From Anaerolineae bacterium (GTDB lineage Bacteria > Chloroflexota > Anaerolineae > Aggregatilineales > Phototrophicaceae): a stretch of DNA of 64,000 bases. Numbering within the stretch: position 1 is the first letter of the stretch; each line of letters starts with the position of its first letter. The stretch is from the NCBI GenBank assembly GCA_021296065.1, contig JAGWBD010000001.1, positions 1 to 64,000 on the forward strand, read 5' to 3'. Both the position numbers and the translations under genes were made by a program. The notes under the pieces are model-generated. The model made no database searches. It saw nothing but the letters and a program-made list of their open reading frames with translations, and had not been told where the DNA came from. Of this stretch, positions 53,709 through 60,773 are shown in pieces.

Positions 53709-53906
53709 ATGGCCGACGTGCAGGAGGTTCAGGTTGACGACCGCGTGCAGCTTCGCAAGCCACATCCCTGTGGCAGCGATATCTGGGTCGTCTACCGCAT
53801 CGGGGCGGACATTGGTCTGCGTTGCAGCGCTTGCCAGCGCAGGGTCTTGTTGACGCGCAGGGAATTCAACAAACGCGCGAAACGGCTCCTGCGCGGGGCC
53901 TTGTAG
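53709..53906 (+). CDS. DUF951 family protein
   Basis: A 65-residue small protein. Family-typical blocks: VQLRKPHPCGSDIW (~14-27), IGADIGLRCSACQRRVLLTRREFNKR (~31-56). Three conserved cysteines (two in CSAC) suggest a zinc site. Homologues in Bacillota, Chloroflexota and cyanobacteria have no established role. The start is at 53709 (MADVQEV). Confidence 0.9.
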   Translation: MADVQEVQVDDRVQLRKPHPCGSDIWVVYRIGADIGLRCSACQRRVLLTRREFNKRAKRLLRGAL

Positions 53907-53944
53907 ACGCGGCTCCCGAATACGATCGCGCGGAAACTCGAGGC

Positions 53945-55180
53945 ATGTTGCTCCAGACGGACAAAACAAGGCGCATCCTGATCCTGATGTCCGATACCGG
54001 CGGCGGACACCGCGCCGCGGCCGAGGCCATCCGTGAGGCGCTCTACCGCGAACCCGGGCCGCAGGCCGTCGCCGTCGAGTTGGTGGACGTCTTCCGCGAT
54101 TACTCGCCCGCGCCCTTCAAGTACCTGCCGGAGATTTACCCCTGGTGGGTCAACAACAGCAAGCAGTCCTGGGGCGCCGGCTACAAACTTTCCAACACGC
54201 GCCAGCGCGCCCGCATTCTCTCCACCACGATTTTCCATACCCTGGAACTGGGGCTGAAGCGCCTGCTGCGCGAGCACCCGGCGGATGTCATCGTCTGCGT
54301 ACACTCGGCCCTGGCGCGCCCCACCATGAAGGCCATGCAGAGTTTGCCGGGCCGCGCCTCATTTGTGGTGGTCGTGACGGACCTCGTCTCCACCCACCAC
54401 ATGTGGTACGAGCGCCGCGCCGAGCGCACCCTGGTGCCCACCGCAGCGGCCTATGCGCGCGGCCTGGAAAACGGCATGACGCAGGACCAGTTACGACTCA
54501 CCGGCCTGCCGGTGCACCCGAATTTCATCGACGGCCTGACCGACCGGGCCAGCGCGCGCGAACGGCTGGGACTTGACCCGCATCAACCGGTCGTGCTGCT
54601 GGTGGGCGGCGTGGACGGCATGGGCCCGGTCTACCGCACGGCGCTGGCCATCAACGAGCGGCGGCCACAATGCCAGCTGCTGGTCATCACCGGCCGCAAC
54701 GCGACCCTGCGCCAGCGTCTGCAGTCGGTCGTCTGGAACCAGCCCACGCGCATCTACGGCTTTCGCCGCGACATGCCTGTCGTGCTGGCGGCGACCGACA
54801 TCATCGTCACCAAGGCGGGGCCGGCCACCATCAGCGAGGCCTGCATCGCCGGCGTCCCGCTGATCCTCTACGATGCCATCCCGGGTCAGGAGACCGGCAA
54901 CGTCGACTGGGTCATCGAGCACGGTGTCGGCGTCTTCACGCCCGAGCCGCGCGAGATCGGCGACACGCTGCTCGCCTGGCTGGCCGAAGGGCCGCAGGGC
55001 CTGCAACGTCGCTCGCAGCGGGCGCGCGCCCAGGCCCGCCCCAACGCCGTCTTTGAGATCGCCGCCGACATCTGGCACCAGGCGCAGCAGGGGCCGCAGG
55101 CGACGCGCGGCAAGCCGCTGCTGCTGCACGGCATCGAGGACCTCGCCGCCGCCACCCGCCGCCTCACGCGGGACCTGTAG
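53945..55180 (+). CDS. MGDG-synthase/UgtP-like glycosyltransferase (GT28)
   Basis: A 411-residue GT-B enzyme. The N-terminal MGDG_synth domain shows LILMSDTGGGHRAAAEAIREAL (~14-35), PEIYPWWVN and VSTHHMWY; the C-terminal domain has GGVDGMGP, AATDIIVTKAGPATISEA (~284-301) and YDAIPGQETGNVDWV. These motifs bind diacylglycerol acceptor and UDP-sugar in MGDG and diglucosyldiacylglycerol synthases. It likely makes membrane glycolipids. The start at 53945 avoids overlap with the DUF951 gene. Confidence 0.92.
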   Translation: MLLQTDKTRRILILMSDTGGGHRAAAEAIREALYREPGPQAVAVELVDVFRDYSPAPFKYLPEIYPWWVNNSKQSWGAGYKLSNTRQRARILSTTIFHTLELGLKRLLREHPADVIVCVHSALARPTMKAMQSLPGRASFVVVVTDLVSTHHMWYERRAERTLVPTAAAYARGLENGMTQDQLRLTGLPVHPNFIDGLTDRASARERLGLDPHQPVVLLVGGVDGMGPVYRTALAINERRPQCQLLVITGRNATLRQRLQSVVWNQPTRIYGFRRDMPVVLAATDIIVTKAGPATISEACIAGVPLILYDAIPGQETGNVDWVIEHGVGVFTPEPREIGDTLLAWLAEGPQGLQRRSQRARAQARPNAVFEIAADIWHQAQQGPQATRGKPLLLHGIEDLAAATRRLTRDL

Positions 55181-55229: not shown

Positions 55230-56030
55230 ATGACAATTTGCGTAAGTGTGAAAACTCGTGACGGGGTCGTGTTGGGCACGGACAGCATGTCGACGGTGAC
55301 TCTTTTCGGCAATGATGGTCAATCGATGGCACAAAAAACATACAGCAATGCCCGAAAACTTGTTCAGATAGGTGAACTGCCTGTAGGAGTTTTTGCTTAC
55401 GGGTTGGGCAATTTGGGGCCACGCACAGTCATTAGCCACATACTTGAATACAGTCGCGCACTCGAACCGGGTAGTGACTGGAGAGTGGAAGGCATCGCTG
55501 CGGGATTGTCAGAGCACATGTCACGGGAATACAGTGCGATACATGCTGATATCGAACCCGGACCTGTCCTGGGTTTACATGTAGCCGGGTACTCGGATGG
55601 TTCTTCCCTGTCGGAAGAGTGGGAAATGGAATTCCCTGACCCACCCGGCCCCAATCTTGAGATGGACAGCCATGAGTTCCGGGTAAACCGGGAGGGTGTA
55701 ACATTTCCGTTTGGACGGCTGTTTCATGGATTCGATCCCGGAATTGTGAAGATTTTGCTGGAGGAAGGTGTCGAACAGAAATTGTTGCAGAAGTCGTAGA
55801 CTGAATCTCCGCTCGTGCCGCAAGTTTCATTTTCTGCAATGCCTCTCCAGGATGCCATCAACTTCGCAGTTTACGTATTGCGAACGACGATCGGATTCAC
55901 CTCGTTTGAAGCAGGACCGGCGATGTGTGGTGGTCCGCTTCAGATTGCAGATTTATCTGGGGAGACGCGGTTCCAGTGGGTTAACAAGCCAGAATTCAGG
56001 ATTCCGGAGGACACCAATGGGTGGGTATGA
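55230..56030 (+). pseudogene. Proteasome-like Ntn-hydrolase interrupted by an in-frame amber codon
   Basis: The first 189 residues (55230-55799) look like a proteasome/HslV-type Ntn hydrolase. Thr2 would be the N-terminal nucleophile after Met removal (MTICVSVKT), with Asp18 (VVLGTDS) and Lys43 (SNARKLVQIG) as possible partners. The reading frame stops at TAG 55797-55799 but continues in the same frame to 56030 (77 further codons; VSFSAMPLQDAINFAVYVLRTTIGF, MCGGPLQIADL, FQWV), which reads as the missing C-terminus. Either a recent nonsense mutation (CAG to TAG is one change), readthrough, or two polypeptides. The DNA is AT-richer than its surroundings. Confidence 0.75.
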
Positions 56031-56193
56031 GCGGTCTGATGAATGGAAATATAATCAGTCGGGCAAGGTGAGACTTACCGGAGAGCCTGTTTCGGCGGTT
56101 GTCGTCCTTGACAAAAAATACTCCCAATCCGGGCCCTTCGTGCCAGGCGAACGCGTGTGCCGACCATATCCGCCGTTGATTCCGAAGCAATAG
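56017..56193 (+). CDS. Small ORF with strong Shine-Dalgarno, unknown
   Basis: A 58-residue peptide starting with ATG 56017, six bases after GGAGG (56006-56010). It overlaps the end of the proteasome-like reading frame by 14 nt in another frame. Sequence features: N-terminal acidic/aromatic part, a beta-like SAVVVLDKKY and a proline-rich end. No family is recognised. The strong ribosome-binding site and tight overlap argue that it is translated. Confidence 0.5.
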   Translation: MGGYERSDEWKYNQSGKVRLTGEPVSAVVVLDKKYSQSGPFVPGERVCRPYPPLIPKQ

Positions 56194-56342: not shown

Positions 56343-57422
56343 ATGAAGGCGGTCATTCTCGCGGCGGGTCAGGGGACCCGTCTGCGACCGGTCACCCTCA
56401 CCATGCCCAAACCGCTGGTGCCTGTCGCCAACAAGGCCCTCATTGAGTACTCCATCGACCTGCTGCGCGAGGCCGGCCTGACCGACATCGGCATCGTCGT
56501 CAACAGCATGGGCTCGCCCATTCCCAGGCAGCTTGGCGATGGCCGCCAGCTGGGCGTCCGCCTGGAATACATCGTGCAGGAGGTGCAACGGGGTCTGGCG
56601 CATGCCGCCAGCCTGGCGCAGCCTTTCACCGGCGACGAGCCTTTCTGCATGTTCCTCGGCGACAACGTCTTCAAGGACCGCCTCGGCGATTTGCTGGCCT
56701 CCTTCCCGGGTTCAGATGCCGAGGCCGCGGTGGCCCTGACCGAGGTGCCGGACCCGGAGCGCTTTGGCATCGCCGAGCTGGACAGCAATTGCGGCAGAAT
56801 CCGGCGGGTGGTGGAAAAGCCGCAAAACCCGGTCTCCAACCTGGCCATCTCCGGCGTCTATCTCTTCCGCCCCTCGATCTTTGAGGCCATTGATCATATT
56901 CAGCCTTCCTGGCGCAACGAACTGGAGATCACCGACGCCATCGGCTGGCTCATCGGCCAGGGGAAACACGTCCAGCCCTACATCCTGCAGGGCTGGTGGA
57001 TCGACGCCGGCAAGCCTGAATCCATCATTCAGGCCAACCAGGTGCTGCTGGGTGAATTGCCCTACACACCACCGCCCACGGATCGTCGCCAGGTCTGTGA
57101 ACATTCCGATGTCTCGCACCGTGTGCTCATTGGCCGTGACAGCCAGGTGATCCACAGCGTGGTGCGGGGCCCGGTCATCATTGGTGAGAATGTGCGTATC
57201 ATCAACAGCTACGTCGGCCCCTACACCGCCATCGGCAACAACGTGGTCGTCGAGGGCAGCGAGATCGAGGACAGCATCGTCATGAAGGACTGCGTCATCC
57301 GCAACATGCCGGGCCGCATCGATTCCAGCCTGCTGGCGGACAATTCGCAGGTCACCTCGGCCGAACACGTGCCGGCCGCCCACCGCCTGATCCTCGCCGA
57401 GAACAGCTACGTCCAACTCTAG
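56343..57422 (+). CDS. rmlA: Glucose-1-phosphate thymidylyltransferase, long form
   Basis: A 359-residue nucleotidyltransferase. The N-terminal catalytic domain starts MKAVILAAGQGTRLRP, with the LGDNVF metal site and VVEKPQNPVSNLAISGVYLF. The C-terminal left-handed beta-helix (~240-355) is typical of long RmlA/actinobacterial-archaeal forms, and differs from the short proteobacterial enzyme. It makes dTDP-glucose or a related nucleotide sugar. RmlB, C and D are not adjacent. Confidence 0.9.
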   Translation: MKAVILAAGQGTRLRPVTLTMPKPLVPVANKALIEYSIDLLREAGLTDIGIVVNSMGSPIPRQLGDGRQLGVRLEYIVQEVQRGLAHAASLAQPFTGDEPFCMFLGDNVFKDRLGDLLASFPGSDAEAAVALTEVPDPERFGIAELDSNCGRIRRVVEKPQNPVSNLAISGVYLFRPSIFEAIDHIQPSWRNELEITDAIGWLIGQGKHVQPYILQGWWIDAGKPESIIQANQVLLGELPYTPPPTDRRQVCEHSDVSHRVLIGRDSQVIHSVVRGPVIIGENVRIINSYVGPYTAIGNNVVVEGSEIEDSIVMKDCVIRNMPGRIDSSLLADNSQVTSAEHVPAAHRLILAENSYVQL

Positions 57423-59730: not shown

Positions 59731-60213
59731 TCAGATCACCATCACCTGGTCGTTGACACCCGTCAACTGCCGCAGGTATTCGATCTGGCCGGCGTGATAA
59801 CCGTCATGCCAGACCAGTTCGAGCAGGCATTCGCGCAGGTTGTCGCCATGGTCGCAGCTGTCGGCGTTGAATTGCGCTTCAGTGAGTGCAGCCAGCGCCG
59901 CCGCCAGTCTTTCCTGTGAGCGGCGCAGGTCGGCCAGGATGATGCCGAGGTCGACAGAATCATCGTCAGCCTGCATCGCCTCGCTGCCGTACCAGTAAGG
60001 CAGGGACCTGGTCTTTTCCCACAGCGGCTCGCCGCCCGCCATTTTCAGTGTGTGATCACGATAGACCAGCATGTGACCCAGCACCCAGTTGAGGCAGTTG
60101 CCACGGAAGGGCAACTGCAACATGCTGTCGGCATGCGTCAGGCCTTCCGTCTGGACCTCGATGACCTGCAGGTTGCGCGCCAGCAGGTGGATCATTTCTG
60201 CGCCTGAAATCAC
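59731..60213 (-). CDS. DinB/YfiT-like four-helix-bundle protein, paralogue A
   Basis: A 160-residue metal-binding helical bundle. Metal ligands are His in NWVLGHMLV (~47) and the C-terminal HxxxH in WHDGYHAGQIEYLRQLTG (~138-155). Its neighbour at 60240 is a clear paralogue (LPFRGNCLNWVLGHM in both). The family includes thiol-dependent enzymes (bacillithiol/mycothiol S-transferases) and uncharacterised stress proteins. It lies directly before the PfkB kinase gene. Confidence 0.87.
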   Translation of the reverse strand: MISGAEMIHLLARNLQVIEVQTEGLTHADSMLQLPFRGNCLNWVLGHMLVYRDHTLKMAGGEPLWEKTRSLPYWYGSEAMQADDDSVDLGIILADLRRSQERLAAALAALTEAQFNADSCDHGDNLRECLLELVWHDGYHAGQIEYLRQLTGVNDQVMVI

Positions 60214-60239
60214 GGGCGCACCCCCTTTGCTCGCGTCGT

Positions 60240-60719
60240 TCAGATCACCTTGTCGCCGACGCCCGACAGTTGCCGCAGGTACTCGGTCTGGCCGGTGTGG
60301 TAGCTGTCGTGCCAGGTCATGAAGGCCAGACGCTTGCGCAGGGTATCGTCGCGTTCATTCTCGAATGGCGCGTCCAGCGTCCCGTCATCCAGCGCGGTCA
60401 TGGCCTCCGCCAGGCACTCCTGCGAGCGCTGCAGATCGGCCAGAATACTCTCCATCGGCACGGCATCAGCTTCGGCCGTCATTGCCTCACTGCCAAACAT
60501 GTAGGGTGCGGACTTTTCGGCGTCCCAAAGTGTCTCCGCGCCGGCAATGCGCAGCATGTAGTCGCGGCTGACCAGCATATGGCCCAGCACCCAGTTGAGG
60601 CAGTTGCCGCGGAAGGGCAATTGCAGCATGCTGTCGCTGTGCGTCAGCCCCTCGGTCTGGAGACCGATGACCCGCAGGTTTTGTGCCAGCATGGTGGTCA
60701 TGTCAGTTGCTGTAATCAT
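60240..60719 (-). CDS. DinB/YfiT-like four-helix-bundle protein, paralogue B
   Basis: A 159-residue paralogue of the preceding protein in reverse order. The start at 60719 has AGGGGA upstream. It has the same NWVLGHM and WHDSYHTGQTEYLRQLSGV metal sites. Gap to paralogue A is 26 nt, so tandem duplication is likely. Sequence has diverged mainly in the middle helices, indicating separate roles. Confidence 0.87.
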   Translation of the reverse strand: MITATDMTTMLAQNLRVIGLQTEGLTHSDSMLQLPFRGNCLNWVLGHMLVSRDYMLRIAGAETLWDAEKSAPYMFGSEAMTAEADAVPMESILADLQRSQECLAEAMTALDDGTLDAPFENERDDTLRKRLAFMTWHDSYHTGQTEYLRQLSGVGDKVI

Positions 60720-60773
60720 GGCTTCCCCTTTACAGTCCGTCCCCTGTCCAGTCTGGCACAATTCGCGCGCGAA

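Follow-up and report, generated by a model that had tools for sequence, protein, structure and literature searches.

Probable recent nonsense inactivation of a dispensable proteasome-like gene in an Anaerolineae genus

The window (the whole stretch of 64,000 nucleotides that was analysed, from genome G000) carries on its forward strand a proteasome-like reading frame that opens with ATG at 55230, is interrupted by an in-frame TAG after 189 codons, and runs on for 76 sense codons to a TGA at 56028–56030. The initial annotation had pointed out both the amber codon and the unchanged frame behind it, and both were confirmed, although its count of 77 codons past the TAG includes the final stop. The frame beyond the TAG is meaningful rather than a chance opening, as it is conserved with a coding pattern of substitutions in the orthologue of a congener, G002. 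Two genes of the glycosylation type, a setting that had also been noticed at the outset, adjoin the locus, and a short ORF overlaps the end of the gene (Table 1).

Table 1. Features at the proteasome-like locus, in window coordinates
Feature	Position	Strand	Remarks
Upstream MGDG-synthase-type glycosyltransferase	53822..55180	+	Pfam MGDG_synth; ends with TAG; true start probably downstream of 53822
5' part of proteasome-like gene	55230..55799	+	189 codons and TAG
In-frame TAG	55797..55799	+	TTG (Leu190) in the G002 orthologue
3' part of proteasome-like gene	55800..56030	+	76 codons and TGA; MPLQDAI and CGGPLQIA motifs; last core helix and two strands
Short ORF overlapping the gene end	56017..56193	+	58 aa; GGAGG upstream of ATG; conserved in G002
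Downstream sugar nucleotidyltransferase	56343..57422	+	Pfam NTP_transferase; ends with TAG

Among the 31 coding-like stretches of the window (~10,500 codons), this TAG is the sole mid-gene stop, the background rate of in-frame stops being gauged within these 64 kb. Two further internal TGA codons found in the stop scan were discarded, as they lie in overextended ORF starts, outside the genes. TAG terminates six of the 31 coding-like genes, and both genes flanking the locus end with it.

When the window protein was scanned directly against Pfam, NCBIfam and PADLOC, no match was obtained; the G002 protein by itself did not match Pfam either, and a sequence search of the PDB with the single window protein returned chance matches only. 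At the level of the family, PF00227 (Proteasome) was matched by nine of 19 members (best 2.9e-6), and the family profile gave a weak match to proteasome beta in the PDB. An AlphaFold2 model of the intact G002 orthologue (pLDDT 83) was matched by Foldseek to proteasome beta subunits (1e-8), and it superposes on Anbu with a Z score of 19.8 (197 residues, 2.9 Å) and on proteasome beta with a Z score of about 19. In both superpositions residue 2 of the model overlies Thr1. The active-site pattern of Thr2, Asp18 and Lys43, first read from the window alone, is present and conserved across the 19 aligned relatives: either Thr or Ser occupies position 2 in all 19, Lys43 is invariant and Asp18 is at least 90% conserved, the latter two corresponding to Lys33 and Asp17 of the proteasome beta/HslV/Anbu superfamily. 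Taken together, the PF00227 matches of the family members and the match of the orthologue model to proteasome beta and Anbu identify the predicted product of the locus as a proteasome-like Ntn hydrolase.

The family nevertheless differs from the PF00227 superfamily in that the identity is only 12–19%, its proteins have about 265–290 residues with extra segments between helices, and its distribution is sporadic. Fuchs, Alva and Lupas (2021; PMC8665760) described uncharacterised proteasome homologues, including groups with multiple insertions (PMI), in which the insertions lie after H1/H2 and between H3/H4. Extra helices are seen at 159–191 of our orthologue model, and the family has in common with the homologues of the 2021 survey a prokaryotic and phage distribution, a proteasome-like core and the conserved Thr/Ser-Asp-Lys; the gene probably falls among these uncharacterised prokaryotic groups. 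All 19 members of the alignment also matched phrog_5990 (best E value 4e-24), a PHROG family of phage proteins of unknown function whose profile, with 427 positions, is the longer one and carries no annotation. Collections of plasmid and phage records were searched and yielded no match. On IMG/VR viral contigs, 23 relatives with 22–38% identity were seen (L125–L147), some of which possibly lie in host flanks of proviruses. A diverged group of longer proteins (L027, L028, L029 and L031; open frames of about 185–480 aa) shares the C-terminal motif TVGGPxDVAVISKGDGFxWIxRKHYF and is probably another subgroup of proteasome homologues.

The orthologue in G002 (Anaerolineaceae bacterium COS1_bin_10, contig JAPOVC010000018.1), a genome of the same genus, lies at the same locus between the same neighbours, and its frame is uninterrupted. 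The two proteins are 89% identical. At codon 190, G002 carries TTG where the window has TAG, so that a single T-to-A change separates them; the ancestral CAG that had been anticipated is not what the orthologue holds. About 30 more relatives across the phylum, with 24–40% identity, are mostly single uninterrupted genes. The family copy L010, when read on its correct strand, contains no TAG interrupting the gene. Two copies, in G432 (L106, G432:C5:12787-13571) and G441 (L109, G441:C292:10176-10966), carry one frameshift each, which suggests recurrent gene loss or assembly errors.

The dN/dS between the window and G002 was 0.095 for the whole gene (95% interval 0.060–0.147). It was 0.071 (0.035–0.122) before the stop and 0.19 (0.072–0.378) after it, with overlapping intervals; over the 50 codons that directly follow the stop it was 0.077, and the rise stems from the last 25 codons. 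The 3' part thus shows no clear decay so far. If the window branch had evolved neutrally throughout, about seven stops would be expected, but only one is present and there is no frameshift. Because dN/dS is low even in the codons just after the stop, the inactivation, if real, is recent.

At the corresponding intergenic site of a third congener, G001, no more than the final ~54–60 bases of the proteasome-like gene are left between the upstream and the downstream gene. This deletion scar (L097, 14020–14150; G001:C10, about 614019–614132) disrupts the small downstream ORF too. The gene is dispensable in the genus, since G001 lost its copy separately by deletion. The dS values of the flanking genes place G001 and G002 as sisters (0.16–0.21) and G000 as the outgroup (0.42–0.55); a glycosyltransferase comparison with G000 that was made in a wrong window frame is left out of account. 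With this branching order the two losses are independent, and the gene was present in the common ancestor of the three congeners and was hit separately in two lineages. A different PF00227 protein occurs in G001 (L124, G001:C10:215419-215877), for which G000 and G002 gave no counterpart.

The gene is AT-richer than its surroundings, as the initial annotation had stated, with 51–53% GC against 60–72% in the flanks; GC3 is 0.53–0.58 in both species compared with 0.83–0.87 in the neighbouring genes (0.53 and 0.84, respectively, in the window). In a sample of 61 relatives, full-length copies turned up only in this genus. The transfer proposed earlier is supported by GC3 and by this patchy distribution, but a recent date is not, as the locus already held the gene when the three congeners split. 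The same gene order in G000 and G002, a dS of 0.60 that is near that of the neighbours, and the deletion scar in G001 all indicate that the gene predates the split of the congeners. These data fit an acquisition before the genus diversified, with no recent transfer.

We consider that the locus most probably (roughly four chances in five) represents a dispensable proteasome homologue, acquired before the genus diversified, that a nonsense mutation has recently turned into a pseudogene. The proteasome-like Ntn-hydrolase gene would have entered before this Anaerolineae-type genus diversified and would have been kept under purifying selection, and a recent T-to-A change in the window lineage would have turned the Leu codon TTG into TAG. 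Translation would then yield 189 residues that lack the last core helix, the strands and the conserved GG motif, and such a product would be expected to lack function. Among the 76 residues that are lost are the invariant Q207 and G234-G235, in addition to the last core helix and strands; with Q207 and the GG pair missing, a truncated product would not be expected to adopt the core fold of the model. Compared with an intact syntenic orthologue the frame is broken, as in a pseudogene, and the TTG of the unbroken G002 frame lends weight to the fresh nonsense mutation that was among the options first listed. What the data show directly is the nonsense codon, the orthologue with its intact frame, the G001 deletion, the pattern of selection and the family to which the fold belongs; that the base is real and that function has been lost is inferred.

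The main competing explanation holds that the gene is in reality intact and that the TAG arose through faulty sequencing or assembly, or reflects a variant carried by a minority of the metagenome. One base is at stake, in an assembly of 178 contigs that is 85% complete, and the strong purifying selection on both sides of the TAG is what an intact gene would show. We nevertheless regard an error as unlikely, because no second mid-gene stop occurs in the coding-like stretches of the window and because G001 has deleted its own copy. Furthermore, rpsB, detected in 390 of the 400 genomes sampled from the same phylum, has no internal stop among the matches listed, whereas 3 of about 33 copies of the proteasome-like family are broken, besides the deleted one in G001; as rpsB is essential, it serves as a control for assembly error and not for dispensability.

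The two further options of the initial annotation, readthrough and two subunits, are not supported. If the amber codon were read through, by natural suppression or recoding, a full-length enzyme would be made, and the persistence of the frame and of coding constraint beyond the stop would be explained. However, the genome carries release factor 1, the tRNA genes detected in this 85% complete genome (39 RF00005 matches and tRNA-Sec) include no CUA anticodon, TAG is an ordinary terminator here, no stable or unusual RNA structure follows the stop, and the relatives lack TAG at this codon, so that readthrough is very improbable; the suppressor tRNA that had been proposed as a check did not turn up. 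The tRNA-Sec of this genome (L086, G000:C2:11267-11361) reads TGA and is irrelevant to TAG. Slightly less probable still is a natural two-chain enzyme, in which the 3' half would be separately translated from GTG 55815 or ATG 55842 and join the 5' half. Such start codons do lie shortly after the stop, and two-chain enzymes are known among the Ntn hydrolases (PMC8665760), but neither candidate is preceded by a ribosome-binding site, and the intact orthologue has the same codons inside its frame. Nearly every relative is encoded by one gene, the two exceptions being the frameshifted copies, and orthologues made of two natural genes, the case that would have spoken for separate subunits, were not seen. 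The locus has the appearance of gene loss of an ordinary kind, still under way, and not of a novel reading of a stop codon. This removes stop-codon recoding as a false lead, and the amber codon itself would be an instance of common gene decay; of more interest is the family of proteasome homologues, which is sporadically distributed, has been lost repeatedly and also occurs on viral contigs.

The short ORF at the end of the gene has a counterpart of 69 codons in G002, and because dN/dS between the two is 0.11 (0.03–0.27), it is most likely coding. A small ORF with a motif resembling a ribosome-binding site lies directly downstream in 18 of the 31 genomic family members, compared with 10–11% in two controls, and in 14 of 20 family members of the viral-contig set, compared with 7% in the control; these counts come from related family members, which are not independent events. 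The small proteins are similar within some subgroups (E values of 1e-4 to 1e-11 in small comparisons), and a helix-like tail of similar type, W-x-x-L-A-x-L, closes several of them. The ORF in the window is possibly a co-transcribed partner gene. More broadly, and with somewhat less than even confidence, we suggest that this widespread family of bacteria and viral contigs may work as a unit with a short partner protein that evolves fast and is encoded by a second gene directly downstream, which would be intact here. Such a small protein could be a substrate reserved for the enzyme, an inhibitor of it or a factor in its assembly. For the homologues of the 2021 survey no informative genomic context was reported (PMC8665760), whereas in the window family the short downstream ORF is often present; the partner, if real, would offer a handle on function.

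Elsewhere in the window, two adjacent similar ORFs of 160 and 173 aa lie on the reverse strand at 59731–60761 and have the look of a tandem duplication.
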